A stretch of 64,000 nucleotides of DNA from assembly GCA_020186115.1 (NCBI GenBank), contig WSYJ01000149.1, positions 310,001-374,000 of the forward strand. The letters run 5' to 3'. Position 1 is the first letter of the stretch; each line of letters begins with the position of its first letter. The notes under the pieces were generated by a model, which saw only the letters and a program-made list of their open reading frames with translations, made no database searches and was not told the DNA's origin. The translations under genes and the position numbers were made by a program. Source of the DNA: Histomonas meleagridis (lineage: Eukaryota; Parabasalia; Tritrichomonadida; Dientamoebidae). Below, one piece after another: positions 1 to 61,178 of this stretch.

Positions 1-375
1 TAAATATCTTTTGCATTAATATCAATTCTTTCTTGTTCAAGAAGTAATTTGGATACATCTATGTGTTTGCTATTCAATGCCAACAAAAGAGCTGCATTAA
101 ATAATTGTTATAAATTCCAAATATTACATTGAAATATCAAAATGTTAAAATAAATTTTATTTAAAACAAAAAAATATCTTTAGCATTAATATTAATTCCT
201 TCTTGTTTATGAAGTAATTTTACTATATTTATATAACCTTTGCCAGATGCTTGAATAAGTGCTGAATTGATTAATTCGATTTTATGCTTGTTATTAATTA
301 ATTCTTGATCAAGTATAAATTTCACGATATCAAAATGGCCATTTCTAGCTGCATTTAGAAATGGAGCTTTAAATT
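1..375 (-). pseudogene. Ankyrin repeat relics (3' part of an array)
   Basis: On the minus strand three ankyrin repeats can be read in pieces. The TAL-type repeat starts (read as gctg on the plus strand) lie at 91 and 261, exactly 170 bp apart, as in the other arrays here. The most upstream repeat (about 265-370) instead joins the next one directly in frame, with no AT-rich spacer, through a linker reading INNKHKIELINSALI. There is no start codon or complete ORF, and the window edge cuts the locus. It could be the end of a real ankyrin gene running off the left edge, or a relic. Confidence 0.6.
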
Positions 376-1295
376 TTTTGAATAAATTCCAAATGTTTTC
401 AAGAAATTTTCAAAAAATTTATTAAAATTTAATAAAAATTATTAAAAAATTTCATTTTTATTTTTAATATATTTCTCCTTTAATAGGAAACTAAAAAGTT
501 CTTTATTTCCAGATAGAGATGAAATTTGTGAGAAATTAATCGAAATCCGATTTATCTCAAGGAAATATTTCCTGTTTCAATTGATTTAATAATAACATTA
601 TTTTTTAATCCCCTTGTTTTTGATAAGAATAATTAAAAAATTTTATAATTATCATATGAAATACATTTGTAGATTAATGCACTTTTTGACCGTAATGCAC
701 AATTTTGTACAGAAAAATATATATATATATAAATACATATATTCATGAAAAAAATATTTAAATGAAGATAAAATCCAGGTCCTAGTAATATAACCAAATT
801 TAATTTATACACCAAACCTGATTCAACTAACATATTAATATACGAATATCCGAGATTTCGAATCTCAAATATGTTTCAAATTTAAACTTTACTCACTAAA
901 ATAAAATAGTATATTAACTTCTTTCACGTTAAATAGTTCCCTCCGTTTAAGATGATACAGGTGTATTTGCCCTTGAATTTTTTATATTGACCTGCTTTGT
1001 TCGATTATTCTGTATTGAAATTTCATTTTAATGAGGTAACTGCCGCATTGACAGCTCGAAAAAATTCATTTGAAACGAATATACCTATCAAAAAGTGGGC
1101 TGTGTGGGGTTTTGTTCAAACGAAAATATTTCTTTCTTCTCCATATTTATCACAATATAATTTATTCTAAAACAAAACAAATGAGTATGTAAATATAATT
1201 TATAGTTGTTTTTTCATTTACTGCTTGATTCGATGAGGTTTGAAGCGGAAATTTTTCTTATTTTCAGATAACATGTCATAATTAAGGCTGGATCA
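376..1295. other. Intergenic region upstream of the Akt-like kinase
   Basis: Very AT-rich. It holds an AT microsatellite near 717-730 and a small palindrome around 847-861 (GAGATT/AATCTC). No credible coding region is seen. A TCATAA sequence at 1275-1280, about 20 bp before the kinase ATG, fits the trichomonad initiator consensus TCA(+1)Y(T/A); this match is short and could be chance. Confidence 0.5.
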
Positions 1296-3819: not shown

Positions 3820-4640
3820 AAAGAATTTTCAAGTCAAAGCCAACACAATTGGTTCAGTCATGTTATGTATTGCCGGAATAATTACAAATCTCTTTGGAGG
3901 ATTAAGTCTTGCACAACGTCTTATTAAAGAAGGACATAATCCAAATGAAATTTCAAAAATAATTCGAAATGATGAAATCGAAAAACTTCACGAAATATCT
4001 TCATAAGCAAACTTTGATTTTAGTCAAACATCACTTTATGAAAGATGTTCATTTATTAAAAAAAAAATGTTACATTAATTGATTATGCAGCATTTTTTTT
4101 CTTCAGTTAAATGTTTTAAATATTTACTTATGAATAATGCAAATGTAAATAACACAGGTAAATATGCAATTGCAGGTGGAAATGAAGAAATAGTTCATTT
4201 ATGTGAACAAAATCATTCATCATTTGCAGGTGCATATAGAACAGCAATTTAATTTCATCAAAATAATATCTTTAAATATATTTATGAAAATAAAATTATC
4301 GAATGTCTGGAAATATAACTTATGATTTAAATAGTTTTTGTATTAAATAAGATAATTATGATATTTTAGCATTTTTGGAAGAAAAAGGAATTAATATTAA
4401 TGCTAATAATATAAACGAATCAGCTAGAAATGGAAATTTATATGTTGTTAAATGTTTCCTCCAAAAAATATTTTGCCATTTGCTTCAGAATCAGATAATA
4501 TTGAACTTGTGAAATGTGATTTAGAACAAAAAGGAATTGATGTTAATGCAAAAACTATTCATTTGAATAATTTATAATATGCTTTAATAATTTAGAATAT
4601 GTTTTAATAATTTGAAACAGCACTTCATATAGTAGTTTGA
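3820..4640 (+). pseudogene. Degenerate DUF3447-ankyrin gene
   Basis: Plus-strand translation shows disconnected pieces homologous to the DUF3447 genes at 20.0 and 39.5 kb: NPNEISKIIRNDEIEKL, then FDFSQTSLYERCSF, a LIDYAAF-like piece, AGGNEEIVHLCEQN and LAFLEEKGI, followed by ankyrin repeat scraps ending near 4640. Internal stops (for example after HEISS) and several frameshifts break it, and no start codon heads it. It is closer to the 39.5 kb copy in wording (NEI..IIRNDEIEKL). It lies next to an unrelated 29 bp word shared with ERCC1. Confidence 0.8.
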
Positions 4641-13032: not shown

Positions 13033-13150
13033 CCAAGCATTAGCTATCCCGAAGGACAATATATTTTAATGAATTAGTAAAATATTTTTCTAATATGTCA
13101 TATTAGATAAACACTTTACTTTTTACTAATGCAAAAGTATTCACTTGGAA

Positions 13151-13230
13151 TATGTTTTAATAATTTGATATATGTTTTAATAATTGTGGATTTATTTTAA
13201 TGATTTAGAATATTTTTTAATAATATTTGA
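13151..13230. repeat. 20 bp AT-rich minisatellite, four copies
   Basis: Four degenerate copies of a unit like AATATGTTTTAATAATTTG recur at exactly 20 bp spacing; the TTTTAA core is at 13155, 13175, 13195 and 13215. The same unit occurs twice at about 4575-4612 and once near 15510-15530 (minus), each time as the spacer after an ankyrin repeat. It is therefore probably ankyrin-spacer sequence that has lost its coding part. Confidence 0.7.
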
Positions 13231-15202: not shown

Positions 15203-15783
15203 AGAAATTAATTATTTATGTTGAACGTTTCTTTTATATAAATTTGTATATGTGGCTTTCAAAGATATTTTTTCGATGATTGCAAAATATGGCGTACAAA
15301 ATTCATCGTGATAAAGTGATTAGTAATTACAATCTTCATCTGAATACGTAAACAAGTATCCCCCAAGTACAACAGTATATTAAATTATTAAAAGATATCC
15401 AAAATTATTCAAATAAATAGTTTTTGTATTAACATCAATTCCTTTATCTAAAAGTAATTTTACTATTTCTATATTATTATTTCTAACTGCTATATGAAGT
15501 GCTGTTTCAAATTATTAAAACATATTCAAAATTATTCAAATGAATATTTTTTGCATTAACATCATACATATGTAGAAACATCAGACTTTATAATAGCTGT
15601 TTTAAACTTATAAATCTAATGCTTCTTTCATCTCAAAATATGTATCACACATTAATTTGAACTTAAAAAGTCATCATAGAAAAATGTTGTTAAACATTTT
15701 AATAATCAATTCATCGACTTCAACATATTAATTTAAACCACTACAGACTTAGAAATGCATTTATTTTATAACATTTAACTTTT
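15203..15783 (-). pseudogene. Intergenic region with ankyrin relic on the minus strand
   Basis: At about 15414-15560 (minus) one ankyrin repeat reads TALHIAVRNNNIEIVKLLLDKGIDVNTK; its start is at about 15499. It is flanked on both sides by the short spacer type (TTGAATAATTTTGAATATGTTTTAATAATTTG), not the 70 bp type seen in the larger arrays. The preceding unit survives only as its end (DVNAKNIH). No start codon or longer frame exists. The rest is AT-rich without features. Confidence 0.6.
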
Positions 15784-20036: not shown

Positions 20037-21212
20037 ATGCTTCCATCAATCCAAACAATTCATACAATAGAAAGAATTATTTTTGATATTACTGAAGATA
20101 ATATAAAGCAAACAGTAGATTTAACTCTAGATTTATTTGAAAACCAATTTCCAGATTCATTTAATCTTCTTGTTTCTCAATTTTTATATTCGGCTTTTAT
20201 TTCAAAAGTATGTAATAAAAATCTTATTATAAATTATTTATTAATTTTAAATTCAAATGAAGAAGAAATATTCAAAACTAAAAATAATATTATTTATATA
20301 TTTAAACATTATTTACTCCAAAAGACTTCGCAAGAATCATATTTTCTTATAGCGAATATGATAAAACAAGAAATACTCGATGCAAGTTTTGTAAAAAATA
20401 TAAATTCTTTATATTTTGCACATTATAAAACATTAGAAGAAATTTTAAGAATGAAAGATTTAAAGTTTTATGATGAATTTATTTCAAATCTTGAAATTCT
20501 TTCTAAAAATGATTGGAAACTTCATAAAATGTTAATTGATGAAGGAGTTAATCCACTAATAATAACAAAAGTTTTACGAAATGATAATTTAGAACAATTA
20601 CAAGAAATATCATCACAAAAAAAATTTGATTTTAATCAATTCATTGAACCATCACTTTATGAAATATGTTCATTTGTAAACAAGAAATATGTATCATTAA
20701 TTGATTATTGTGCATTTTATGGATCATTTAAATGTTTTAAATATTTATTAATGAATGGGTCAAATGTAAATAATACATTAAAATATGCAATTGCTGGAGG
20801 AAACTTAGAAATTATTCGTTTATGTGAACAAAATATTTCATTATTATCTGAAGATCCAATTGAATGTTTCGAAACAGCAATAGAATTTCATCGAAATGAA
20901 ATTTTTTATTATTTTTATGAAAAGAATTTTGATCAAATATATGATTTAACTAAATTAGGTAGAAAATGTATCGATTTTAGTAACTATGAAATTTTTTCAT
21001 TTTTAGAAAAAGAAGGTATGGAAATAAATGATATGATCATAAAAAATATAGTAACAAATGGTAACACTTTCTTACTTAAAGATTATACTCAAAAGAATCA
21101 AATTCCAAACATATTAATATTTGCAATTCCATCTGGAAATCTTGAAATTGTTCAATTACTCCTTGAACAAGAAGAAATTGATATTAATACTAAATATATT
21201 TTGTTTCAGTGA
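20037..21212 (+). CDS. DUF3447/ankyrin-repeat protein (N-terminal ORF)
   Basis: The 391-codon ORF has the trichomonad DUF3447 layout: a helical N-terminal region (1-170), then LIITKVLRNDNLEQLQEISS, FNQFIEPSLYEI, VSLIDYCAFYGSFKCFKYLLMNGSNVN, KYAIAGGNLEIIRLCEQN (degenerate ankyrin repeats), and the first good repeat ending LLLEQEEIDINTKYILF. The frame stops at the first AT-rich spacer (21210-21212), and further repeats follow with spacers (separate entry). Paralogous to 39496-40608. Function unknown; ankyrin repeats usually bind proteins. Whether the downstream repeats join by splicing is the open question for this locus. Confidence 0.75.
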   Translation: MLPSIQTIHTIERIIFDITEDNIKQTVDLTLDLFENQFPDSFNLLVSQFLYSAFISKVCNKNLIINYLLILNSNEEEIFKTKNNIIYIFKHYLLQKTSQESYFLIANMIKQEILDASFVKNINSLYFAHYKTLEEILRMKDLKFYDEFISNLEILSKNDWKLHKMLIDEGVNPLIITKVLRNDNLEQLQEISSQKKFDFNQFIEPSLYEICSFVNKKYVSLIDYCAFYGSFKCFKYLLMNGSNVNNTLKYAIAGGNLEIIRLCEQNISLLSEDPIECFETAIEFHRNEIFYYFYEKNFDQIYDLTKLGRKCIDFSNYEIFSFLEKEGMEINDMIIKNIVTNGNTFLLKDYTQKNQIPNILIFAIPSGNLEIVQLLLEQEEIDINTKYILFQ

Positions 21213-22175
21213 ATATTTATACTTATTAATTGAAGCTCGTTTTCATAATTTGGAAATTATTCATATTATTTGAAACAGCACTTATTTATGCATCTAAATA
21301 TGGTCAAATTGAAATTGTTAAATTCCTTCTTAAACAAAAAAATATTGATATAAATGTAAAAGATGTTTATATATTATATTGGATATTTGTTTTAAATAAT
21401 TTTTATTTAATTTAAAAATTTTGGATTTATCTGATTTATTTAGAATTTATTTTAATTATTTTTAACAGCATTTCTATGGGCTATTTTATATAATCATATT
21501 GAAATCGTTAAATTATTTCTTGAGCAAAAAGAAATTAATGATACAAATGATATTTATTTACTTTATTGGATATTTACACTTAACATTTGTAGAAGGTCTA
21601 ATGTTTGCATCTCGATATGGACGTATTGATACAGTTAAATTCCTTATCAAGCAAAACAAAGTTGATCTAAATGCAAAAAATGTTTTTATTTTCTATAAAA
21701 TATTTGTTATAAAAATATGAAAATTATTTTAATTATCTGGAATTTATTTTAATAGTTTTGGACCGCATTAATGTGCGCATCTCGACATAATCAAATCGAA
21801 ATTGTTCAATTCCTTTTTAAACAAAAAGATATCGATATCAATGCAAAAGATATTCCAATATTTTATAGAAAATTCATTTTAATTTATCGATATTAATTTT
21901 AAATATTTGGAATTCATTTAAATAATTTTGGACAGCACTAATGCATGCATCTCGATTTGGTCAGTTTGCTGTGGTTGAATTCCTTCTTGAACAAAAAGAT
22001 ATTGATATAAATGCAAAAGACATTTCAACTTTTTATAGAAAATTTATTTTAATTTATTGAAATTAATTTTAAATAGTTGGAATTTATTTTAATTATTTAA
22101 AACAGCACTTATGCTTGCATCTGAAAATGGTCATATTAGGATAGTTAATTTACTTCAATCGATTCAATTCTAATT
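21213..22175 (+). repeat. Ankyrin module array, six modules
   Basis: Six ankyrin repeats continue the 20037 gene on the plus strand; all keep good codons (for example GLMFASRYGRIDTVKFLIKQNKVDLNAKN) but each is followed by an AT-rich spacer. Repeat starts (GCA of TAL or its equivalent) are at 21278, 21468, about 21595, 21765, 21935 and 22105. The last three intervals are exactly 170 bp; the first two are 190 and about 127. No single frame crosses a spacer. The last unit (ALMLASENGHIRIVNLLQSIQF) ends in a stop at about 22170, like a natural C-terminus. Confidence 0.8.
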
Positions 22176-36807: not shown

Positions 36808-37974
36808 ATGAACAAGGCTGAGAACATAATCAACCTTTACAAACAAGGATTCAGCCAAAAACAAATAGCAGACATACTGCATGTTGGAACTCATCGAGTT
36901 GGTGATACAATTCGACAGTTTACCTCAACGAATGAAATTCCAAAACAATCAAAACGTGGAAGGCCTCAAGTAATTAATAATCAAATAAAAGAATATATCG
37001 AAATTAAAACACTTCAAGACGCATCATTAACATCAGTTAAATTATCACAACAAATAGAAGATATTTTTCATAAATCAATTTCACCACAATATGTCTCAAA
37101 AATTAGAAACGAAATGAGATTTCAGTATCGACCTCCTAAAACAGAACAGCTTTTAAACGAAGAACAGATTAATGCAAGAAAAAAATTTTGCTCAAAAATG
37201 TTAACACAAACACAATTTTTGGATAAAATTGCCTTTTCAGACGAATGTAGATTTGTATTAAGTAAAGACAATAGATGGGTGTGGGTAAGCAAAGGAGATT
37301 ATACTCCAAATTCAATATCAAGAAATGTAAAATTTCCCCAGTCAATTATGATTTTTGGGGTAATTTCATGTAACTATAAGAGCAAACTTGTAATAATACA
37401 AAAATCTGTGAACTCTGAGCAATATATAGAGAATATGATTAAATCTGATTTCATCAATGGGATGAATGAACTACATGGAAAATTAGATTGGGTGTACATG
37501 CAGGACGGAGCTAGGTGCCACACATCTGTTGATTCTATTGATTGGTTGGAGGAGCGACTCGATGTGATTACTGATTGGCCACCCAACTCCCCCGACTTAA
37601 ATCCCATAGAATTACTATGGGCAATAATGAAGCGTATTGTAGCTGAACAAATGCCGAGCACTGTAGAGGAGCTTAAAAAACTGCTTGAAAAAACTTGGAA
37701 TGAACTTGACATGGAATTAATTAACAAGCTTTGTTCGGGTTTCGTCGACCGTTTACGCCTCTGCTTGGAAATGGAGGGGCAGTCGATTTTAAGATTCTTA
37801 GGATTAGCGAAAGATTTAAAAGAGGCTACACTAAAAAAAAGAGACTATACGCGATGGACAGAAGAAGAGGACATGTTACTTCATGATTTGGTAACAAAAA
37901 TTGAACATCAAAAATCATCAAAAATTGATTTCCCAACATATAAACAAAAGAGATCCGATTTCATGCAAAAATAG
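36808..37974 (+). CDS. Tc1-like transposase with C-terminal Myb-like segment
   Basis: The 388-residue product has an N-terminal helix-turn-helix (6-40; LYKQGFSQKQIADILHVGTH), the basic GRPQ motif (51-54) and a second DNA-binding region to about 110. The catalytic domain carries Asp145 (FSDECRF), Asp233 (MQDGARCHTS) and Glu268 (SPDLNPIELLW), with 34 residues between the last two: DD34E, the Tc1 signature, not mariner DD34D. It cuts and inserts the element at TA sites. After the usual end near 335, a tail reads RDYTRWTEEEDMLLHDLVTKI, like the start of a Myb/SANT helix; this is unusual for Tc1. The ORF is unbroken, with all catalytic residues present. The stop is not in TAAA, unlike many host genes here. 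Confidence 0.93.
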   Translation: MNKAENIINLYKQGFSQKQIADILHVGTHRVGDTIRQFTSTNEIPKQSKRGRPQVINNQIKEYIEIKTLQDASLTSVKLSQQIEDIFHKSISPQYVSKIRNEMRFQYRPPKTEQLLNEEQINARKKFCSKMLTQTQFLDKIAFSDECRFVLSKDNRWVWVSKGDYTPNSISRNVKFPQSIMIFGVISCNYKSKLVIIQKSVNSEQYIENMIKSDFINGMNELHGKLDWVYMQDGARCHTSVDSIDWLEERLDVITDWPPNSPDLNPIELLWAIMKRIVAEQMPSTVEELKKLLEKTWNELDMELINKLCSGFVDRLRLCLEMEGQSILRFLGLAKDLKEATLKKRDYTRWTEEEDMLLHDLVTKIEHQKSSKIDFPTYKQKRSDFMQK

Positions 37975-38479: not shown

Positions 38480-39400
38480 ATTTTGTATTATGGGACTGAA
38501 AATAATAAGGTGTACTCAATAGACTTCCATTAAACTTTAAGAATAAATAATACTATGAATAATAATTAATTTTTTGTTGTTATGAATTTTTCATCATTTT
38601 TTTCACAAAAATTATCATCAAATTATATGAAAATCATACAATGAAATATGATATAAAATATTCGATTTATCAAATTTAATGCGTTAATAATAATAATAAT
38701 ATATGAAAACAAAATGAATTTAGGAAATGTTTATTTCAATATTTAAATATTTCCTCTTTTATCCTTGTGAATCTTTTAATTTTATTATGTCGTCACATTT
38801 ATGATGTTGAATTTTGTCTGCAAATAATCGAATAATTTCTGCATTTTTCTTTTCTGATGCTATCATAAGCGCTGTTTTATATGTTTATAAGTAATTCCAA
38901 ATGTTTATATGAAATTTCATATTTTTTAAAAATATTTTAAATAAAACAAAAAAATATTTTTAGCATCGATATCAATATTCTCTTGTTCAAGAAGTAATTT
39001 AACGATTTCTGTATGACCTTTTGAAGATGCTAACATAAGTGCTGTATAAAATAATTTAAATAATTTCCAAATATTATTTTGAAATATCAAATTATAAAAA
39101 TAAATATTAAATATAACAAATAAATATCTTTATCATTAATATCAATTCCTTTTTGTTCAAGAAGTAATTTAACTATTTCTGAATAACCATATATAGATGC
39201 ATCAATAAGTGCTGTTTCAAATAATTTAAATAATTTCCAAATATTATTTTAATACTAAAAATTATTAAAATAAATTTTAAATAAAACAAACAAATATCTT
39301 TAGCATTAATATCAATTCCTTCTTGTTCAAGAAGAAATTTAACTATTTCTGTATAACCATTTTTTGAAGCATTTGTTAGTGCTAAAAATATTTAAAAAAA
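38480..39400. repeat. Third copy of the BEACH 3' end / ankyrin array junction
   Basis: From 38480 this matches 60254 onward in the same orientation: the last BEACH codons (VLYYGTENNKVYSIDFH and stop), the intergenic AT tract, then ankyrin modules on the minus strand. The left arm (49240 downward) is the same in inverse orientation. Some differences (gcgtta, atgaaaac near 38685) agree with the left arm against the right arm. Upstream the similarity ends at about 38480, so only about 50 bp of BEACH coding sequence came along. Confidence 0.88.
38800..39400 (-). repeat. Ankyrin module array, four modules at 170 bp pitch
   Basis: Minus-strand repeat starts (gctg on the plus strand) are at 38871, 39041, 39211 and 39381, three intervals of exactly 170 bp. 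Modules read for example TALIDASIYGYSEIVKLLLEQKGIDINDKDI and, last, TALMIASEKKNAEIIRLFADKIQHHKCDDIIKLKDSQG followed by a stop. The last module equals the end of the 47.4 kb array, whereas the upstream end joins a DUF3447 gene. Confidence 0.85.
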
Positions 39401-39495
39401 AATTTAAAAATTTTTATGAAACGATGAAATATTTTAATAAAAATCTAATGAAATAAACAAACAATCTTGCTAAAATCAATGTATCTATTGTTAAT

Positions 39496-40608
39496 TCAAT
39501 TGTTATAAAGTTCCACATTTCCAGAAAAACCCGAAATTTTCAAAAAATCAATAGGAATATGATTACTTTCGAGAAAATATTGAGTAATATATAAATTCCC
39601 TGTTATGATTGAAGCAATGAGAATATTTTCATTTATTTTCATTCCTTCTTTAAGTAAAAATGATAAAAGTTCATAATTATCATGTAAAACACATTTTACT
39701 CCTAATTCTTCTAAATTCTTAATTTCTTTTAACTTATTATCATAAAAATATTTAAAGATATCATTTCGATGAAATTTTATTGCTGTTTCATATGCCCCTT
39801 CAAATGTTGAATGATTTTGTTCACATAAATGAATTATTTCTTCATTTCCACCTGCAATTGCATATTTACCTGTTTTATTTACTTTCGAACCATTCATAAG
39901 TAAATATTTAAAACATTTAATTGAAGAAAAAAATGCTGCATAATCAATTAATGTAACATTTTTATGATTAATAAATGAATATCTTTCATAAAGTGATGGT
40001 TTAATTCTTTGATTGAAGTCAAAATTTGTTTGTGATGATACTTCTTGAAGTTTTTCTATTTCATCATTCCGAATTATTTTCGCAATTTCATTCTGATTTA
40101 TTCCTTCTTTAACATATTTCTGATGAAGTTCCCAATTATTCGCTTTAAGTTTTTCAAGGTTTTTGGAGAAATATTCAGAAAATTGATAGCGATAGTTTAA
40201 AACGAAATGTGCTTTAAAATGTGAAAAAAATAAATTTTTCATATTTTTAGTAATCGATGAGTTAATTAAACCTTTTTCTATCAACTTTCCGATAAGATAA
40301 TTAGATTCTTGTGAGTTATTTTTCCGAAGGAATTGAGAAAAGACGTCAATTATTGAAACTTGATTTTTATTTACATCTCGTTCAATTAAATTCAAAAACT
40401 CAATAATTATATCTATATTTTTCAGTCTTGTTACAAACAAAGTGTAAATGAAACGGCAGATGATCAAGTTGAATGAATACGTTCGTGAATTATCATAAAA
40501 TTCGCGTAATGAAGAAACAGATGTATCAAGATTGTTTGTATTTATGTTATAAATTATTTCTGTAAGTGCAATTAAGTCTGGAAAAGAATTTATCTTTGAT
40601 GTACTCAT
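39496..40608 (-). CDS. DUF3447/ankyrin-repeat protein (N-terminal ORF)
   Basis: From the Met at 40608 (MSTSKINSFPDLIALTEIIYNI) the ORF has 370 codons. I take this start because it lines up with MLPSIQTIHTIERIIFDI of the 20.0 kb paralogue; the frame is open upstream to 40740. Shared blocks are EGINQNEIAKIIRNDEIEKLQEVSSQTNFDFNQ, KPSLYERYSFINHKNVTLIDYAAFF, CFKYLLMNGSKVNKTGKYAIAGGNEEIIHLCEQN and FLLKEGMKIN. The frame ends SGNVELYNN at the first spacer, and four ankyrin modules follow downstream. Function unknown. The join to the modules is the same problem as at 20.0 kb. Confidence 0.75.
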   Translation of the reverse strand: MSTSKINSFPDLIALTEIIYNINTNNLDTSVSSLREFYDNSRTYSFNLIICRFIYTLFVTRLKNIDIIIEFLNLIERDVNKNQVSIIDVFSQFLRKNNSQESNYLIGKLIEKGLINSSITKNMKNLFFSHFKAHFVLNYRYQFSEYFSKNLEKLKANNWELHQKYVKEGINQNEIAKIIRNDEIEKLQEVSSQTNFDFNQRIKPSLYERYSFINHKNVTLIDYAAFFSSIKCFKYLLMNGSKVNKTGKYAIAGGNEEIIHLCEQNHSTFEGAYETAIKFHRNDIFKYFYDNKLKEIKNLEELGVKCVLHDNYELLSFLLKEGMKINENILIASIITGNLYITQYFLESNHIPIDFLKISGFSGNVELYNN

Positions 40609-40740
40609 TCCAATGCTATTAAATAACACTGAAAAAAATTTTAATGGACATGTGATATGAATTTTTATATAAGTATTAATATATAAGAACAAAACAGTCG
40701 GTTGACACTCTAACCGTAATTTCTTCTCAAAAATTATCAT

Positions 40741-46092: not shown

Positions 46093-47219
46093 TGAAGCAA
46101 CTTTTAAACTAAATCATTTTTGAATGAGCGATCAAATTTTCATAGCAACTGTTCTGAATTGAATGTTGTTCAAAAGTGTTTCGGCAGTTATCAGGCTTTC
46201 TTTGAACGATTGGTACGAATAAAACATAAGTGGAGAAACTTCAAATACCGGGAGTCAATACTTTTTTGACTACATGGGCTATACTGTAAATTGATTACCC
46301 CAAGTCTCAAGGAAATTCTGATGGACAATATTGAGATATTATAACGAATTTGTTGATTATTTTTGTTATGTAAATTGACAGAAAGGGCGACAAGTACGTT
46401 TATTTTTTACATTTTTTGACAAAATGAAAATATCTTTCCTTTTAAAGATATTATTTAGATATTATTATAATATTTATATATAGAATATGTGTTGAACATT
46501 TTAATATATGTGAATAAATTCGATTCAATATTTTTGTTGAGTTATAAGAATAATTAAAAAAATAAATGAGTTTTCTCCGATACGTACAAAAGAAATCTTA
46601 CAGTGCCATCAACGAACAGGTTTAAAGCCAAAAAGACGATCAAATATTTTTTTTAGTTAAAAAGTGGAAAATTTTTAGCTTCCAATGGTCAAATTTTTGT
46701 TCATAGCTATATAAGAGTGTTCCTCTATATATAGTAGAGGTTTGATAATTTTCATCAAGAATTTTTTATTTTTACCACACCTATGATATGCATAGAGAAC
46801 TATTTAGAAAAATAGCTAAAACTTGTCCATCAGCTTTTAAAAGATATTCTAAATATAAATATTATACATTGAATAAATTGAAAATATTCCAAAAAAATGG
46901 AACATTGTGTCGGTACTTCATAAGGTATTTTTTTTTTTTATCATAGAAAATTTTATAATTGCTAAACATTACTATTGATTGTGACTAGTCATCATATTCA
47001 CCTCCGAAAAGTATGGCAAAAAATATAATTTTTATGTTAAAGTTGAGTGAAATCATGACTTTTTTGAAGACTTAACAACAATTACGAAATTTTGGAGAGA
47101 AAAAAAATGGCAGCGACAAAAAACATTGTGTCAAATGCAAATAAAATGTTAGAGAAAGACAGGTACACCAAATTCAGCAGTAAAAGTTAAAAAAATGAGA
47201 ATGAACTTATTTTAGTTTA
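46093..47219. other. Intergenic region
   Basis: AT-rich, no recognisable gene. The left arm of the large inverted duplication begins at its right edge. Confidence 0.45.
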
Positions 47220-50200
47220 TTAATAATATTTTGTAAATAAAATAAAGTGTTTAAAATCCTTTCCCATCAATAAAGCAAATCTGAGTACAATGTTTGAATA
47301 TAGGCTTAATGATTTATTGTAAAGATTTGGTTCAGAGCGACGTCGCAAAATCCGTGGCCGTTACTTACACAACAACATTGCTGCTAACATTCTGTGGTTT
47401 ATCTGAAAAAAATTTTCGATGCGATTCAGTTAGTTAAGATCGGCGAGTGATCCAACTGTTGAAGAAAAAAAATGCCGAATATAAAAATGTCAAATATATT
47501 AAAAACCAGATGCTTCCTCAACACCAAAAAGAATTTGTATCATTTATTGAATGGCAAATCGAACAAAAAATATTTGATATTAATGGTAAATATGTTTCTC
47601 ATGAAGATTTAACGTTTAATATTTTTTTTTGGAATTTATATAAAATTAATGAAACAGCACTTCATTGGGCAACACGCAAAGGTCATTCTGAAGTTACAAA
47701 AGTTCTTCTTAAACAAAAAGGAATTGATGTTAATGCTAAAGATATTTATTTGTTTTATTTGAAATTTATTATAATAATTTGATATTTCAAAATAATATTT
47801 GAAAATTATTTAAATTATTTTGGACAGCACTTATTTGGGCATCTTATTATGGTCATACAGAAATAGTTAAATTACTTCTTGAACAAAAAGGAATTGATAT
47901 TAATGCTAAAAATATTTACTTGTTTTATTTGAAATTTATTTTAAGAATTTGATATTCCAAAATAATATTTGGAAATTATTTAAATCATTTTGGACAGCAC
48001 TTATTTATGCATCTTCAAATGGTCGTACAGAAATAGTTAAATTACTTCTTGAACAAGAAGGAATTGATATTAATGCTAAAGATATTTATTTGTTTTATTT
48101 GAAATTTATTATAATAATTTTATATTTCAAAATAATATTTGGAAATTATTTAAATTATTTAATACAGCACTTATGTTAGCATCTTCGAATGGTTATACAG
48201 AAGTAGTTAAATTACTTCTTGAACAAGAAGGAATTGATATTAATGCTAAAGATATTTATTTGTTTTATTTAAAATTTATTTTAATAATTTGGAAATTCAA
48301 AATAATATTTGGAAATTATTTAAATTATTTAAAACAGCACTTATTTGTGCATCTATAAGTGGTCATACAGAAATAGTTAAATCACTTCTTGAACAAGAAG
48401 GAATTGATATTAATGCTAAAGATATTTATTTGTTTTATTTAAAATTTATTTTAATAATTTTGGATTTCAAAATAATATTTGGAAATTATTTAAATTATTT
48501 AAAACAGCACTTATGTTTGCATCATTTAAAGGTCATACAGAAATAGTTAAATTACTTCTTGAACAAAAAGGAATTGATATTAATGCTAAAGATATTTATT
48601 TGTTATATTTAATATTTATTTTTATAATTTGATATTTCAAAATAATATTTGGGGGTTATTTAAAATATTTAATACAGCACTTATGCATGCATCTGAAAAT
48701 GGTCATACAGAAATAGTTAAATTACTTCTAGAACAAGAGAATATTGATATCGATGCTAAAAATATTTTTTTGTTTTATTTATAATATTTTTAAAAAATAT
48801 GACATTTCATATAAACATTTGGAATTACTTATAAACATATAAAACAGCGCTTATGATAGCATCAGAAAAGAAAAATGCAGAAATTATTCGATTATTTGTC
48901 GACAAAATTCAACATCATAAATGTGACGACATAATAAAATTAAAAGATTCACAAGGATAAAAGAGGAAATATTTAAATATTGAAATAAACATTTCCTAAA
49001 TTCATTTTGTTTTCATATATTATTATTAACGCATTAAATTTGATAAATCGAATATTTTATATCATATTTCATTGTATGATTTTCATATAATTTGATGATA
49101 ATTTTTGTGAAAAAAATGATGAAAAATTCATAACAACAAAAAATTAATTATTATTCATAGTATTATTTATTCTTAAAGTTTAATGGAAGTCTATTGAGTA
49201 CACCTTATTATTTTCAGTCCCATAATACAAAACATTTGTTCTTGAGTCGAAGTACATCGTTACGACTGCGTCCTGTAACTCGAAAGTCCTTAAAATCCTC
49301 AAACACGGCAAACTTAACAATGTCAACTTGTTATTTAAGTCGGACACTGCCAACACGTAATCCTTATGTGCAATAATCATTTCGCACCATTGTATTTTCG
49401 GACTTTGAATTTCCAATTCTTCAATTTTATTTAAATCCATTCCATATGAAAATATTTTTAAAATTTTATTTTTAATAATTTCACAACATATCAATATACA
49501 AGGCGATGCACTAATTTTTAACATTAAAATATTATAATCTAATGAATAACTATATTGATAAGAACCATTTAAGAAATTAAATGATGAAATTTGTCGTGAT
49601 TTATAACCACAAATTAATGCATTACTTACAATACCGATATCAAAATCAATAATCGTCGCTGGATGTGCACTAATTTGGAATTTCATTGTCGCTGGTTGTG
49701 TAAAATTCCATTTAATAATAGAATAATTTCGTGAAGCGGTAACAAAATCATTCGTACTCGTAACTTTTAATGAATTTATTAATGAATATTGTCGTTGTGA
49801 ATTAATTAATTTAATAGTTAAATTATTAATATCAATTTGAAACATATGAAATGTACAATCATTACATGTTGATATAATTAAAATATTCTTTTTTTAAATG
49901 ATATGAAATTGTCCTTTCTGAAATACCTTGAAATCCTGTTAAACAATAACTAATATCAAAAATATTTTCATTTTTATTATTCTTTAATATTAATTTACCT
50001 AATGATGTAATAATAATTAAAATATTATTGAATGTCGTTCGAAGAAATATTGGCTTCGATTTTATTTCAATTTGTAATGTCGGTGTAAATAAAGATAAAA
50101 TAAAATTAATCGTAGAAAAATTAATTTTCATTGGATGTGGATTCTTAAAGATTTGATTTGGAATAGTACCAAAACTTTTTACTAAATTGTTGATATAAAA

Positions 50201-51913
50201 TTAACTTTTCTGGATCTTCTATTACTTGTTTAGTCATATTCGTAGGGATATGTATAAGGATGAAATGTATTATTAGCTAAAATTGCTTCTTTCCCATTTT
50301 GTTTATATCCAAATATTAAATCAATCCATTTAGGTAAATTTAAACTTACATAATCACTTTCTAATGCTGCTCGATGTTTCTCAATGAAATCATACGCATT
50401 TTTACTCCATGGTGGTAATATAACATCATTAATTTTACTTCCATCTGATTTGATTCCTAAATCAAAATTATCTGAATTAATTAAAAATCGTGGGGTACTA
50501 TAAAAATTCTGGTATTAATTCTCGATAATCTGTTAAATCTGGTGATGTAATAGATTCCCATAAATGAGGAATTGATGAAAAAAATTCGACTTGATTTATC
50601 AAATTTATTATCTTGCATTTTAATATTAATACTTGTAAATGGTTCTAATCGTATTAAATAATATGATACAAAAATATGAATTAGAATAATGAACTTTATA
50701 TAAAAATTTGTTTTCTTCATCCATTTCTGTAATTAATTCCTTTAAATGTTCTAATCGATCTTCATTTAATGCTCCAATAGGTTTACTTAAATCTCGATAA
50801 ACATTCGGATCATTTAAATCAATAGTTTCACTCGTATAATCTTTTAATACCCATGGAAAAACTGGATATTGTGTTAAATCATTAAAACTTCGTCCTGAAA
50901 ATAAATTAATTATGATTAAATATTTATAATTAGAAATTTCTCCATTAACCCATTTTTCAGTAATTTTTTCTTGTTCTAATAATGATGAATTCGATGTTTG
51001 TAAATATTTTAAATTAGGTAATTTTAATTTTTTAAGAATTTTAATAACTGTTTCCTTAATATTTTGATTCGGAAATATTATTAAATAACTTTTTTGTGTA
51101 GTTAAAAAAAATTCTAAACCACATGGAATATGATATTGATTTCTTTGTAAAACCATATATAAATCTTTAAGTTTAATTTCTATTAATCGATGTTTAATAT
51201 TATTATTAATATTATCTGGTGTGAAAAAAACTTGATTCTTATTAAGATAAAATGTACCTTGAAATGAATTATTTAATTTAATATGTTGTGCTGGTGAAGC
51301 AAATGAATATGTATATGTATCTTCTTTAGAATCATCAATATTTATGTCATTTTCATTATTATTATTATTATTATTATTACTATTATCTTCAATAGTTGTA
51401 GTCTCTGTTGAATTAGTTGTCCCTGAATTTATTTGTTTAAATGATTGTAATCTTTGTAATGCTTCTGTTTGATCACGTGAATCACGTAATAATGATGCAA
51501 TTTGATGTTGATCAAAATGTTTATTCGGTCGTAATATATTATGTCTCCAATCTAAATCTAATGTCGATGATAATTTCCAATGTTGTTCTTTATTAATATG
51601 AATATTTAATGAATAATTAATTTCTAATTCTTGTAATAAATCTTTATATATCTTTTGGATATATTCTTGATTATGTAAATTATATAAATGTTGTTGTTTA
51701 ATGGTAGAAATTAAAATATTATTATATTTAGAAAAAATTGTTTTATTAAATATAAGTTCATTATTAAATAAATTATTTATCGTAGTACATATTTTTGTAA
51801 AGTTTTGCATCATTTGTGTTTGTAATGGAACTGTTAAAATAAATATCGATTGTAACCATTCACTTGATGTAATTCCATAAATTTCAGGAATAGGTTCTTC
51901 AATAACTTTTTGT
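47220..51913. repeat. Left arm of large inverted duplication
   Basis: Matches the reverse complement of 57577-61430. Outer edges are at about 47220 / 61430 (TTAATAATATTTTGTAAATA). Inner edges are at about 51913 / 57577 (ACAAAAAGTTATTGAAG). It contains the ankyrin-module gene and the 3' third of the BEACH gene. It is about 840 bp longer than the right arm, which equals five 170 bp ankyrin modules minus small indels. Confidence 0.93.
47447..48960 (+). CDS. Ankyrin-module gene, eight modules at 170 bp pitch (split frames)
   Basis: A unique N-terminal part (AEYKNVKYIKNQMLPQHQKEFVSFIEWQ, FDINGKYVSHEDLTFNIFFWNLYKIN) leads into eight ankyrin repeats. Repeat starts (GCA/GCG of TAL) lie at 47657, 47827, 47997, 48167, 48337, 48507, 48677 and 48847: seven intervals of exactly 170 bp. 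Every repeat keeps intact codons (for example TALIYASSNGRTEIVKLLLEQEGIDINAKD), but the spacers shift frame. The last repeat ends RLFVDKIQHHKCDDIIKLKDSQG with a stop, like a natural C-terminus. No in-frame ATG heads the left copy; the inverted copy has MPIKNAEYKNV. Either a multi-intron gene or an amplified pseudogene. Confidence 0.5.
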
Positions 51914-54900
51914 TTAGGAAATCCATTGATTAAATCTAATATTAAAATTTCTATTTGTTTATATATTGTTGGATTTTTACAACCAATAGGATATAAATAC
52001 ATTAATATTATTGATAAACATTCAATTATAATATCATAATTATTAATTAATAATAAATGTGATTTATATAATGGTAAAAATTGATTAATATATTTCGAAT
52101 CAATTCTAAATATATTACCCATTAAAAATGTTAAAGCTGAAAATAAATTGATATTATTCTTTTGAATATTAATTTGTTTATCATATAATGAAGAATTAAT
52201 CGTTTTCAAACTAAATATTAATAATTTAATTGATAATTCAATATCATCCCATGTACCATTTGATGTTCGTAATGATAATGAAAAGAATATATCAAAATTC
52301 GTATTATTATTATTAAATATATCATTAATAAATTCTAATAAAGTAAAATCACTATCAAATCGTTTAACTAAAAATATTCGATTTTGAATACCATGTCTTT
52401 GATATAAATCATTATTTTGATAATTTTGATCATAATTTGGTATAAAGAATAAATAATTAAATATTTCAGGAAATACATTCATAAATATATTTTCATCTTT
52501 AATTTCAGTATTATCTAATAACTTCAAAAAAATCATTTTTAAGTAACTTACTGTTTCTAATTGTTTTTTATATTGTATTATATGTAAAAATGAAATTGTA
52601 TTTTGCAATAAATTAATTTTTTGTTTTATTACTATATAACTAACAATATGTGAAAATATATCAATTAAAGTTTTATTATGTAAAGCTATTGAAGGTTTTG
52701 AAGATTGTGTATATATATAAAATATATATAAATGCCATAAAGAATTAATTAATTGATCCAATGATTTTTGTATCAAAATAAATGAAAGAAAATTATTCAA
52801 AAATTCCATACATTTATCACTAAAATGATTTGAAATAAATGCTATTAATTGTAATAATCCATAAGAAAGTTCAGGATTACTAAATAATAATTGTGTTGAT
52901 TCATCCCAAATTTTGATAGTTTCATTTTCATAATTATAAAATTTAATATATAAACTAATTGCTATATCTAAAGGATAAGGTATAGTTTGTAATTGATTCT
53001 TTTGATATAAGTTTTGTGATAATATTATGAATCTTAATCCATAACAACGAATTTCTTCATTAGGATCAGAAGATAAATTAATTAATGCTAAGTAATAATT
53101 TTGATGTAATAATATATTTCGACTATCAAAGATTTTTTGTTCAATTAATTTATACATTAATTCTAATGATTCTAATCGAATTTCAATTTTCGTATTATTT
53201 AAACAATTTTGAAATAGATAATTCATATTAGATAAAGAAAATTTCTTTTTAACATATAATAATAAAAACTCATATAATATTTTACGTGATTCACTTGATT
53301 TAATACTAATAATGAAATTAAACAAAAAGATAAATCCTAAATTTTGTAATAAATTAACAGATGTATTATTTTGTAATAATTTTTTATATATTTTCTCAAC
53401 TAATATTTGTATTGTTAATTTTTGATGATTTTTCCATATGTTAATATTAAAGAATATATATTCTAAAATTTCATTCTTATGTGAAACATCAATTAATGAA
53501 TCATATAAAGTATTTAATGAATCGAAAAATGTTAATGAGAAATTATTACGATTAACTTTAGTTAATTGATAAGCTAATAATTTAGCGCAATCATTCGAAA
53601 AGAATAAATTTTGGAATTCTTCAGAATAACTTATTAAACCAGTGAAAAGTGATATTAATGTATTAAAGAATGAAGCATTATCTGTTTCTGCTACCATAGT
53701 TAATACTGGCATATCAACTTGTTCGAACAAAGGTATTAATAATTGAAATCCACTCATGTTAAATACATTTCCAATAAAATTACAAGAATATGGTACTATA
53801 TCACCTTCAACTAATGCTGGATTCTTAAATTTTTGAGAATAATTTAAACAGATATTATTTTGTGTCATTCTTGAATTATATAATAAAACTAAAGAATTTT
53901 CTAAATCATTTTCTTTGGAAAATAATGTATTAGGTAATGATGGGAATAATTTACTATTAGATGATATAAATGAATAAAAATAATCTAATGGTAAATTAGT
54001 TATATCTTTTTGTAAATTAGGTTTGATAAATTGATTAAATAAATAGATTACACTAATATTACATGTTAATGAATTACCATTTTGAAATCCTCGTGCAATA
54101 TAAAAACATTTTATTGTATCAGCTCTAAAATTATTTGCGGATAATTTATCAAGTAATTGTCCATCAACAAATATCTTAAATTCATTGTTATGATATGCTA
54201 ATGTAAAGAAATACCATTTACCTGAATCTGATGAAAAGTTTATATCATGAACATTTTTTTTGGATTTTTTATTTGTTTGAATTTCATATGATATTATATT
54301 ATTCTTTAATATGATTTCAATCATTGTATCATTAGCTGTTTGGAATGATAATAATCGAGGTTCATTACTATAAAATCGTATTGTGTTATCTAAATAAAAT
54401 CGTATCATTAATGTCCATGATTTATTTGGTGTAGAAAATGGATTCGTAGTTTTCATTCCTGTATTTAATCCACTAAAATGGATAAATGATGAAGGTAATG
54501 AAGATTTATTATGTAATACATTTTGGAAACATGTTAATAAATTATAAGTCCACCAAACTCGATGACCTTGATAAGGTTTTAATAAATCAAATGACTTTAA
54601 AAATGTCTTTGGCATAAACAAAAATGATGTTGTTCTTTTAATAATATCCATTGTTTTAACAATTGAAGTAATTTTATTACCTTCTTCAAAGATAGATAAA
54701 TCTGGATAATTACGTATATAATCTAATAAAATAATCAAAAAATTCGATTGACAAATATGTAAACAATTTGAAAATGATTGTTCACATATAGATAATATAA
54801 ATTGGATAATTATCGAATGTTGTGGTAAATGACATGTAGAAGAATGTAAAAATGATAAAGCTTTCGGAAATTGTATTTCAATTAAATCTGGTAATGACTT

Positions 54901-57246
54901 TAAATATATATCTTTTTCAAATACTATTCTTAAAATTATATCTATAATATTATCATCAAATGTTAATTGTGATAATAACTTTGAAAATTGATCAAAATAT
55001 CGATTAGGTTTACAATACATAAATCGTTGACCCTTTAAACATTTAAATGTTAATGTAGAAATCCATAAAATTATATTTTGGATAATTCGAATTGAATTTT
55101 GACCAATTTTATCAATTAATGTTTGTGCTTTTTCTATTACAAATGGAAAAACATTCAGTTTTTCTATTTGTTCAATCATTGTTAATTGATATTGTGTAGA
55201 TTTTAATATATAAAATAACTTTTCAACTAATTTAATCCAACGTTCATCTTCAAGATTATTAATAGATTCATTAATAACATCTTTGAAATAATTAAAGAAT
55301 GGTTCATATTGTGTAGTATTAACAAAAGTAATTTCTTGGATATCAATATTCTTAACAAAGAATGAATTAATTAATATCGTAGTAACAATTTCTGTTGTTT
55401 CTTCTTCAAAGATTAAATGAAACATAAATCCAATGAAATATTTCGATGATGATAATACATAATTTGCAATAACATTATTCTTTAAACTTAAATGTCCCAA
55501 TAAAAAGTTTTGTCTAATTTCAGAAATTTGTCTTTTCTCTTCAACATCATTTGTTAAGATATGAACTCTTTGTAATTTATATTGATAATTATATATAAAT
55601 TCTAAAAATGGTAATGTTACCATTGCTTCAAAAAATTGTGGATTAGTAATAGTTAATAAAGAATTATACAATTTCGATATTAAATAACCAAATTCGAGAC
55701 CAGTTCCATTAAAAAATTGTAAAAATGTTTTTAATATATAATATGAATCACTTGAATTTGCAACTTTTAATGATAAATACATTAAATAAAATATTGACGC
55801 ACGTAATTTATCATAAAAATCATTTGTTGTCGAATTAAATACTGATGTTTGGAAAATCGATTCCCAAAATTTCTCTTTTGTTAATAATGGATTAATAATT
55901 GATTTTTCATAATATATTAAAAATGATAAAATCGTATATAAAAGTGATAAATTCGATTCATTAATATCATTTTTAAATGACATAAAAAGTTGTATAACTT
56001 TCGATGGTACCGAAGAACTTAATACACCTTCAGCAAGTTTTTGTGTTGTAGATAATAAACGATGTGAAAACTTATTAACAAATATAACTTCGCTTTGATC
56101 TAATTGCTTATAAGTTAAATCATTTGTTAATACACGTTCAAATGTTTTGTTCTTTATCCAATCAAATTTCGGATATTTAATTTCATCATTTTCATCAAAT
56201 TTAATTGTGTTAATTTTAGGTAATTCATTTTGTTGTTGTTTTGTTAAAAATGGATAATTCTTATTATACCATAAAATTACTTTAATATAACATTGTGATA
56301 AATAATTTTCGGGTACTATATCTGTGATTTTACATACTGATATACAATACCTAAATAAATAATCAGATAAAAATGATAAATAATCAAAATAATTCGGTTC
56401 AACATTTTCTGCTGTCGCTAAGTCAATAACCATTCGATAGATGGATGTAATAAATGGTAATATAATATCATTCTTAAATTTCTCTGAATAATCAGGTGGA
56501 ATCTTATCAAATACTTGCGCAGCTTTACATGATATCGTAAATTCTGTTTGCGTATGATCAGGAACTTTCGATATAGCCGAAAAATATTTTAAATATGCAA
56601 CTAAGTATTGATACGCTTCATAAAAGTCATCAAAGGTTTCGATACCTATGTTTAATAATGAATTTACTGTCATGTTAGTAAAGTTACGTATGGATTGTTT
56701 CATCGTTGGAGAATATGTCTTGAAATTTAAGTTTTGGAATATTTTGGTTGTAAGAAAACTATATACACTCTTCATTGGGATAAAGGCTTCAATGGAATAT
56801 TCAATAGGTAATGCAAAAGAAACTTGAAAGGCTGCAATAGTATCACTAAATGATTTAACATTCTCATCATTATCAAGTGCTAATTGAAAGATCTTTTGAA
56901 ATGATAAGCTAATGGCTATAAGAAACTTGAACAATGTAGGAATAAGTGGGTCAAATGCATGAGGATCATCTTTAAGAAGATTAAGATTATTGACTAAAAG
57001 AACTGCAAGTTGGAAATAAGCTGGATTAGGAATTAAACCTAAGCTAAGCTTTTCTTTGATGGTGGAAATATCAAATTTTTTCCCCTGGAATGGTTTGGTT
57101 GAATAATGTTGATCTGGAATTTCGGGAAAAATTGTGTCAAATCCTTGAACCCCCTTTAAATCAAGATTTTTAGGCTTAGCCTTTTTGAACCAATGCTTAA
57201 TCATGTCATCAATGGTTTCTCTTCTGGAATTTGACTTCTTCATCAT
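49180..57246 (-). CDS. BEACH-WD40 protein (neurobeachin/LYST family), 3' part frame-disrupted
   Basis: An unbroken 2206-codon frame runs from 57246 to 50626. It holds a helical N-terminal half, a ConA-like lectin insert (about 915-1045; LMIRFYLDNTIRFYSNEPRLLSF, WYFFTLAYHNNEFKIFVDGQLL), a poly-Asn tract, a PH-BEACH domain (about 1990-2080) and the start of BEACH ([30 protein letters not shown]). The rest of BEACH ([11 protein letters not shown] to LPPWSKNAYDFIEKHRAALESDYVS...WIDLIFGYKQNG) and WD repeats (to 49180) continue in other frames. Shifts are one-base homopolymer changes (about 50670, 50578, 50502, 50244, 50176). BEACH proteins act in vesicle trafficking. I treat it as one gene of about 2,680 codons; the breaks may be assembly errors. 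Confidence 0.85.
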
Positions 57247-57576: not shown

Positions 57577-60307
<2,731 letters not shown>

Positions 60308-60499: not shown

Positions 60500-61178
60500 T
60501 ATTTCAATATTTAAATATTTCCTCTTTTATCCTTGTGAATCTTTTAATTTTATTATGTCGTCACATTTATGATGTTGAATTTTGTCTGCAAATAATCGAA
60601 TAATTTCTGCATTTTTCTTTTCTGATGCTATCATAAGCGCTGTTTTATATGTTTATAAGTAATTCCAAATGTTTATATGAAATGTCATATTTTTTAAAAA
60701 TATTTTAAATAAAACAAAAAAATATTTTTAGCATCGATATCAATATTCTCTTGTTCAAGAAGTGATTTAACTATTTCTGTATGACCATTTGAAGATGCTA
60801 TAATAAGTACTGTATTAAATAATTTAAATAATTTCCAAATATTATTTTGAAAGATTAAATTATTAAAATAATCATTAAATAAAATAAATAAATATCTTTA
60901 GCATTAATATCAATTCCTTTTTGTTTAAGAAGAACTTTTGTAACTTCAGAATGACCTTTGCGTGTTGCCCAATGAAGTGCTGTTTCATTAATTTTATATA
61001 AATTCCAAAAAAAAATATTAAACGTTAAATCTTCATGAGAAACATATTTACCATTAATATCAAATATTTTTTGTGCGATTTGCCATTCAATAAATGATAC
61101 AAATTCTTTTTGGTGTTGAGGAAGCATCTGGTTTTTAATATATTTGACATTTTTATATTCGGCATTTTTTATTGGCAT
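60500..61178 (-). pseudogene. Inverted copy of the ankyrin-module gene, three modules
   Basis: Begins MPIKNAEYKNVKYIKNQML at 61178, with the same N-terminal part as the 47.4 kb gene. Three ankyrin modules follow with starts (gctg/actg) at 60979, 60809 and 60639, two intervals of exactly 170 bp. The last ends with the same DSQG stop. As in the other arrays the frame shifts at each spacer. The ATG arises from a 13 bp insertion relative to the left arm, so one of the two has a changed 5' end. Confidence 0.7.

Follow-up and report, generated by a model that had tools for sequence, protein, structure and literature searches.

How can a run of ankyrin repeats be read as one protein when the DNA between the repeats breaks the reading frame? 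The question is raised by an array in the window, by which we mean the whole 64,000-nucleotide stretch of Histomonas meleagridis DNA analyzed here (contig WSYJ01000149.1, positions 310,001 to 374,000; mean G+C 27.6%). Eight ankyrin repeats start, at the GCA of T-A-L, at 47657, 47827, 47997, 48167, 48337, 48507, 48677, and 48847, and all seven repeat-to-repeat intervals are exactly 170 bp. These coordinates, together with Tandem Repeats Finder (period 170, 6.8 copies, 88% matches), bear out what a sequence-only reading of the window had noted. That reading was also right that the ankyrin parts are free of stops and that the last one has a real-looking C-terminus, since it ends in TALMIASEKKNAEIIRLFVDKIQHHKCDDIIKLKDSQG with a stop at 48958-48960. 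When tested singly against Pfam Ank (cut-off 21.1 bits), exons 47651-47743 and 48671-48763 scored 37.4 and 36.3 bits, and the last exon scored 15.8 bits, below the cut-off. A DUF3447 first exon is missing from the array, which may be an incomplete gene.

The sequence-only reading had proposed coding modules with removable non-coding DNA, in the form of one repeat per exon and a single intron of 68-71 nt. The first part stands, as the repeats are exon-like and 68 nt per module must leave for the frame to hold, but the single intron does not. We found that the spacer within each 170-bp module is itself periodic (20 bp), with codons inside, which had been overlooked: it consists of four 17-nt elements (approximately RTTT-N9-ATTT) parted by single codons. 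When the elements are taken out, what is left is an ordinary 34-residue repeat, ...NAKD-x-x-G-x-TAL, and 102 + 4x17 = 170. The array holds 31 elements in total and was parsed into the following predicted features.

47510..47593, + strand: putative first exon, frame set by hand, with an inferred start codon (ATG 47510) in frame with ...FDINGKY and no DUF3447 N-terminus here
47588-47593, + strand: AAATAT at the first-exon end, placed by the parse
47594..47653, + strand: three 17-nt elements (47594-47610, 47614-47630, 47634-47650), then codons AAC, GGA, GAA (N, G, E)
47654..47743, + strand: ankyrin exon 1, TALHWATRKGHSEVTKVLLKQKGIDVNAKD (Pfam Ank 37.4 bits)
47744..47823, + strand: elements 47744-47760, 47764-47780, 47784-47800, 47804-47820; codons GAA GAT GAA TGG
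47824..47913, + strand: ankyrin exon 2, TALIWASYYGHTEIVKLLLEQKGIDINAKN
47914..47993, + strand: elements 47914-47930, 47934-47950, 47954-47970, 47974-47990; codons GAA GAT GGA TGG
47994..48083, + strand: ankyrin exon 3
48084..48163, + strand: elements 48084-48100, 48104-48120, 48124-48140, 48144-48160; codons GAA TAT GGA AAT
48164..48253, + strand: ankyrin exon 4
48254..48333, + strand: elements 48254-48270, 48274-48290, 48294-48310, 48314-48330; codons AAA GGA GGA AAA
48334..48423, + strand: ankyrin exon 5
48424..48503, + strand: elements 48424-48440, 48444-48460, 48464-48480, 48484-48500; codons AAA TGG GGA AAA
48504..48593, + strand: ankyrin exon 6
48594..48673, + strand: elements 48594-48610, 48614-48630, 48634-48650, 48654-48670; codons AAT GAT GGG AAT
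48674..48763, + strand: ankyrin exon 7, TALMHASENGHTEIVKLLLEQENIDIDAKN (Pfam Ank 36.3 bits)
48764..48843, + strand: elements 48764-48780, 48784-48800, 48804-48820, 48824-48840; codons ATA GAC GGA AAA
48844..48960, + strand: last exon, TALMIASEKKNAEIIRLFVDKIQHHKCDDIIKLKDSQG, with stop TAA at 48958-48960 (Pfam Ank 15.8 bits, below the cut-off)

If the single codons are coding, they should be free of stops. We aligned modules of pitch 170 from across the genome, thinned of identical and near-identical copies (397 to 355 distinct and then to 174, 121, or 85), and counted stops per triplet in every frame, with offsets taken from the T of TAL. Among 85 non-redundant modules (no more than 75% alike), offsets 107, 127, 147, and 167, which lie 20 nt apart, contained no stops, compared to a shuffle mean of 23.8 and a minimum of 12 in 2000 column shuffles; because the modules are relatives, the shuffles overstate certainty and do not give exact probabilities. 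The choice of these four offsets drew on the substitution pattern and a period of 20 nt, and the stop table was by then known. Across the 44 remaining spacer offsets where at least 2 stops were expected, the same modules held 462 stops pooled compared to 485.7 expected, the lowest being offset 105 (1 vs 3.5) and offset 125 (1 vs 2.5). In the stop table, the off-frame exon offset 49 had 0 vs 3.1 expected. Stops reappear in the registers shifted by one base (offsets 106, 108, 126, 128, 146, 148, 166, and 168), which fixes the boundaries between exons and elements. Splitting the data by origin gave 0 vs 20.9 for loci found by DUF3447 (100 distinct modules) and 0 vs 51.2 for the others (255), although this only re-divides the same data. 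The new data are loci L065-L067, fetched after the idea had formed, where 80 single codons contained 0 stops vs 11.5 expected. The first 100 dyads listed genome-wide included one TGA single codon vs 17.9 expected, with tandem copies not independent. The modules had been gathered from open frames no shorter than 25 aa, so exon stop counts are biased and were not used as evidence, while the single-codon positions are unaffected.

The identity of the single codons agrees with their place in the repeat. In 121 modules, the main residues were N33 K32 D14 E9 at offset 107, D26 N23 Y10 E9 at 127, G87 E12 at 147, and K21 N19 W18 E18 at 167, which match the ankyrin turn D-x-x-G-x-T, the third being Gly in 87/121. 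The Pfam Ank alignment to the exons starts at profile position 3 or 4 and stops at 32 of 33, leaving each exon short of about what the single codons supply.

The spacing of modules elsewhere in the genome follows the same arithmetic. We ran a protein profile of the repeat on 58 loci as well as the window. It detected modules in the window and in every locus but L045 (57 loci), with pitches of 170 (n=397), 171 (n=21), 153 (n=20), 173 (n=18), 150 (n=9), 167 (n=9), 172 (n=6), 156 (n=6), and 102 (n=4). The count of 397 includes the overlapping loci L001 and L008, which overlap the window and L002 and were excluded from the counts of module integrity, 153-loops, loop number, and pitch fit. Uninterrupted repeats in this genome have a pitch of 102, or 34 codons (L049); 153 is 102 + 3x17, 190 is 105 + 5x17, 173 and 167 are one codon more and less than 170, and 171 and 172 require an 18-nt element or so. 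In the DUF3447-found loci, which were not picked by array DNA, the pitch was exactly 170 in 101/158, and 36/51 of the other pitches between 147 and 193 fit 102+17k+3m (m from -2 to 2), as 14/46 of other integers would.

Whole units are both lost and multiplied. Most of the 500 loops parsed have four elements (433), and the rest have three (53), none (5), or another number (9); the 20 loops of pitch 153 lack either element 1, between D and x (15), or element 2 (5). One gene, L065 (G000:C9:163700-165700), has loops of 4, 18, 23, 4, and 4 elements, so that its long loops hold unbroken series of 17 and 22 single codons, and its sixth loop reads by eye as ten elements, provided that one diverged 17-mer is counted. 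The loops of 18 and 23 elements are a natural extreme. L065 and L066 are ankyrin genes, as is L067 by eye. Dyads of the variant ATATGTTTTAATAATTT, 20 bp apart, occur at 2255 genome places (up to 2 mismatches) vs 74 for the reversed pattern. We propose that the 20-bp unit of a codon and 17 nt duplicates in tandem, so that the loop can grow by single codons; the loop codons are diversified. The earlier idea of amplification module by module was judged right, while the suggestion that the pitch relates to the nucleosome repeat was not supported; it was rejected because of pitch steps of 17 and 3 nt and loops of 4, 18, and 23 elements within one gene.

The elements are near constant in length, with 1716/1756 being 17 nt, 30 being 18 nt, and 10 being 16 nt in cleanly parsed loops, where the parser allowed 16-18 and favored 17. 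Their weight-matrix consensus is approximately RTTTATTTDWWWWATTT, with a first base of A in 75% and G in 18% and the last three bases T in 89, 87, and 91%, and the four loop positions carry their own variants (ATTTATTTGTTTTATTT, ATTTATTTTAATAATTT, ATTTCAAAATAATATTT, and AATTATTTAAATTATTT). Elements start with AT in 286/484, GT in 73/484, and AA in 73/484, and end with TT in 389/484 and ATTT in 302/484. None of 696 elements has GT...AG, and AG stands at the end in 2/696. In line with the sequence-only reading, the spacers lack an invariant GT start and the trichomonad canonical 3' motif, as ACTAACACACAG is at background in the genome (3 hits vs 2 for the reversed control in 43 Mb). Some element types (consensus and variant) contain a TAATAA-like string, a possible branch-site motif, though weak against the AT-rich background. 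Within the window, element matches are enriched inside the arrays relative to a reversed control (71 vs 14 at up to 2 mismatches; 107 vs 47 at up to 3), and show no excess outside the ankyrin arrays (13 vs 17 and 105 vs 92, respectively); 4 of the 13 outside matches belong to a relic loop at 13150-13226.

The sequence-only reading had suggested comparing substitution rates in codons and spacers, with equal rates counting against exons. In 135 close paralogous module pairs, elements differ at 3.6-5.6% of sites and exon codons at about 8% (synonymous 8.3%, nonsynonymous 8.0%; pN/pS 0.96, or 0.73 when five hypervariable codons, chosen post hoc, are left out). Single codons change far more, with nonsynonymous differences of 25% and synonymous differences of 7.6% (ratio 3.35; 329.5 vs 24.5 changes). 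These rates indicate that the elements are constrained and that the loop codons change fast; recombination among modules could contribute. The spacer is the more conserved part of the module, unlike an ordinary intron, and equal rates as a refutation do not simply apply here. In diverged modules, a set chosen for pitch 170, elements are 61% and exons 62% alike. By pN/pS, purifying selection on the exon is weak, which, of all the results, speaks most against a plain functional gene.

At the DNA level, 417/435 near-full modules have an intact exon, 12 are frameshifted, and 6 have a stop; another 129 of the 564 nhmmer hits were not near full length and were left out, and the nhmmer profile was built from modules derived from open frames. 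Seven of the 12 frameshifted modules are in L016 (G000:C72:127000-136900; 7 of its 39 near-full modules), the locus with the most profile hits (48) and the most frameshifted modules of any.

Since stops occur in the spacer near the expected rate in each frame, the elements would be untranslated, and either absent or skipped when the codons are read. Elimination from DNA is unlikely because the assembly contains the elements, and ribosomal bypassing lacks the matching codons, so excision from RNA remains. We consider it probable that the ankyrin loops are interrupted by 17-nt elements that are removed from RNA as non-canonical ultra-short introns, and our findings suggest that they are an undescribed kind of tiny intron. 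The array would then be the repeat region of an ankyrin gene from a large family, in which the beta-hairpin loop D-x-x-G-x-T is cut between codons, usually by four 17-nt elements, leaving three exons per repeat that would be only one codon long. As phase-0 introns with R-T...T-T-T ends, the elements would leave the RNA before translation, most simply through the organism's own U2-type spliceosome working with relaxed rules for the ends, and the product would be a normal ankyrin protein of 34-residue repeats.

The genome offers candidate machinery. In 43,276,120 bases on 121 contigs, a U2 snRNA was found at two places over the cut-off (80.5 and 79.3 bits) and includes the sequence GTAGTA that binds the branch site (as read on the reverse complement of L062). 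A U6-like RNA containing ACAGAGA scored 43.7 bits, just below the cut-off of 44. U12 snRNA had no match at E<=1 among the 42 scored out of 3226 candidates, and the best U6atac score was 19 bits (cut-off 33); U12-type introns were ruled out as a candidate on these grounds. With U2 and a U6-like RNA present and no U12 match, a U2-type spliceosome is favored despite the R-T...T-T-T ends. PRPF8 is named in the H. meleagridis proteome table in the portion of the source considered (PMC10063853). Several points count against this explanation. None of the 696 elements has GT...AG, a series of 3-nt exons set among 17-nt introns makes high steric demands on a spliceosome, and 18/435 modules have a broken exon. 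In addition, the first element is retained in ENA contigs from relatives, and this would count against excision if any of these contigs is cDNA.

Excision need not be spliceosomal. A cut-and-ligate pathway of another kind could take out the elements, as with the nuclear non-conventional introns of Euglena or the HAC1 and tRNA introns, and would suit the non-GT-AG ends (0/696), the rigid length, and the absence of an excess outside the ankyrin arrays of the window. However, the variant RTATGTTTTAATAATTT looks by eye like a 5' splice site of the GTATGT kind together with a branch site similar to TACTAAC, which speaks for the spliceosome, and we regard this pathway as unlikely. We regard it as less likely still that the ribosome skips each 17-nt stretch kept in the mRNA by programmed translational bypassing, for which T4 gene 60 and the mitochondrial byps of Magnusiomyces are reportedly precedents. 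The codons flanking every element are sense, as skipping also needs, and the length is nearly fixed, but known bypassing requires a landing triplet that re-pairs with the take-off tRNA. Here, TTT is the usual triplet ahead of the codon where reading would resume (ATTT ends, 302/484), and the common take-off codons are GAT, AAT, GAA, AAA, and GGA; moreover, four and up to 23 successive hops per loop would be required, and 31 in the window array.

Two further explanations are both highly improbable. One long intron per loop, spanning all the elements and taking in the single codons as non-coding sequence, would need only a single splice event per loop. It predicts stops at the single codons at the rate of their neighbors, whereas we found 0 vs 23.8 (0 vs 11.5 in the new loci) and Gly at the third single codon in 87/121. 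The same data, together with the frame, rule out a single 68-71-nt intron with any ends. An amplified pseudogene or satellite array without a product, the alternative raised by the sequence-only reading, is consistent with the very high copy number, the tandem spread, the 18/435 broken modules, relics such as 13150-13226, and the exon pN/pS of 0.96, but these are outweighed by the intact exon in 417/435 near-full modules, the sense-only single codons, and the fact that the frame holds even in modules whose exons are only about 62% alike. Read-through of the spacer as a hydrophobic segment was ruled out, as spacer stops are near the expected rate, and so was recombination between TTATTT-like ends, where the distance of 69 does not restore the frame (by hand).

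It is about as likely as not that the elements represent a new RNA-level class of intervening sequence, 17 nt long with R-T...T-T-T ends, with thousands of copies within a single parabasalid genome and unbroken strings of single-codon exons in the binding loops of a large, diversified ankyrin family. If so, single-codon exons could be skipped without loss of frame, and skipping together with duplication of the 20-bp cassette would make the loop variable residue by residue. If removed from RNA, the elements would be near the shortest known introns (15 nt in the sources considered), lack GT...AG, and separate 3-nt exons in strings of up to 22. They would offer a direct test of the smallest exon and intron that a splicing machine handles and of how a 3' end can be located where AG is lacking. 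The diversity of the loops is suggestive of a repertoire of binding surfaces assembled one codon at a time, which supposes that the proteins are made and bind something.

Several known systems resemble the Histomonas elements in part. Ciliate IES undergo DNA elimination and are bounded by TA, and the take-off and landing codons of bypass elements re-pair. Both are likewise short intervening sequences in genes, but neither signature is seen here, with TA at the start of only 2/484 elements. The tiny introns of heterotrich ciliates lie throughout ordinary genes and have GT-AG ends. In the portions of the sources considered, they are mostly 15 and 16 bp in Blepharisma (PMC9942806) and as short as 15 nt in Stentor (PMC6679479), and they share with the Histomonas elements an ultra-short size and strongly preferred lengths. 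Unlike them, the Histomonas elements are 17 nt, have R-T...T-T-T ends, flank single-codon exons, and are found in one loop of one family. Type B introns of Trichomonas vaginalis and T. stableri, as described in the part of PMC12316389 considered, are 23-28 nt, GT/AG, with a branch site fused to the 3' motif and one, rarely two, per gene. They are likewise parabasalid and short, and one Histomonas variant has a GTATGT-like start by eye, but they differ in their GT/AG ends and ACTAACACACAG-type 3' motif, which is at background in Histomonas. That a genome can carry ends other than GT/AG in the majority of its introns is seen in Fritillaria borealis, where AG/AC and AG/AT are most frequent (PMC13326754); it differs in being an animal with other terminal dinucleotides and, in the portion examined, has no strings of one-codon exons. 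Tritrichomonas foetus P0017 likewise combines DUF3447 and ankyrin repeats, but its repeats adjoin in one open frame (annotated protein, by eye). In openly licensed literature, searched by title and abstract opening with subscription papers outside the scope, we found no paper on trichomonad introns of 17 nt or trichomonad exons of a single codon; one human paper contains the words '17 nt intron' (PMC2174484). The published H. meleagridis genome is described, in the portion considered, as having scarce introns and at most one per gene (PMC8529796).

The array belongs to a very large gene family. In the genome, at least 113 matches to the window array at E<=0.001, itself included, were found among 40 of 1807 candidates scored, which, together with the 397 pitches of exactly 170, is far more than chance would give; a DUF3447 search gave at least 150 matches (150 of 1695 candidates scored), and at least 103 scored places match the first-exon protein P0001. 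Members commonly begin with a DUF3447-bearing exon of about 400 aa, followed by ankyrin modules. First-exon proteins also came from ENA contigs (P0001-P0010, P0012, and P0022). P0001, the only one placed, has full-length matches in the genome of 75% at best and 55% next, which suggests that these proteins are from another species or strain. Ten of the 12 break where an element would begin, after D, N, G, or Y and with I or V following; P0004 breaks at its second repeat, and P0003 and P0008 are without such a break. P0021 ends ahead of the element point, and the break is absent from the caskin-like P0011 and P0013, which are the only named H. meleagridis proteins of the family within the length window of the protein searches. 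Standard gene prediction appears to cut members at the first loop. The word 'ankyrin' is absent from the main text of a proteome paper (PMC6250841), and the portion considered of a table in PMC10063853 lists a KANK1-like ankyrin protein with no tie to this family. A scan of viral contigs with the first-exon profile gave 54 pattern matches and no relative.

The window contains further arrays and remnants of the same kind.

20037..22155, + strand: second array, with a 391-aa first exon (DUF3447 and Ank above the cut-off), then ankyrin exons
38822..40740, - strand: third array, with a 414-aa first exon with DUF3447 (39496-40740) and three pitch-170 loops of 4 elements each
60590..60983, - strand: fourth array fragment, with two loops of 4 elements each
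3..522, - strand: fifth array fragment, at the window edge, with one loop of 4 regular elements, one of none (pitch 102), and one irregular
4473..4629, + strand: one ankyrin exon, then three elements (codons ATA, AGA, GAA) and TALHI, apparently a damaged ankyrin-array gene, the loop parsed by eye
13150..13226, + strand: relic loop of four elements with codons GAT, TGG, AGA between (by eye) and no ankyrin exon recognized

In the second array, the final three loops have 4 elements each and a 190-bp loop has 5, and the 167-bp and 127-bp loops parse irregularly, with two elements lacking a codon between them, which suggests that this array is partly degenerate or misparsed. The first exon of the third array ends at an irregular junction, and its C-terminal exon is similar to the one in the window array. 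By eye, two arrays have a near-identical last exon and 3' flank, at 48840-49200 (+) and 38875-38500 (-), which suggests that whole gene ends have been duplicated. A lone ankyrin module lies outside the arrays at 15413-15505 (-). An Rfam search of 46801-49500 returned no match. A 2206-aa open frame occupies 50626-57246 (-), a stretch of its C-terminal sequence being repeated in a short frame at 58767-59459 (+) by eye, and a 388-aa open frame at 36808-37974 (+) looks by eye like a Tc1/mariner-type transposase.
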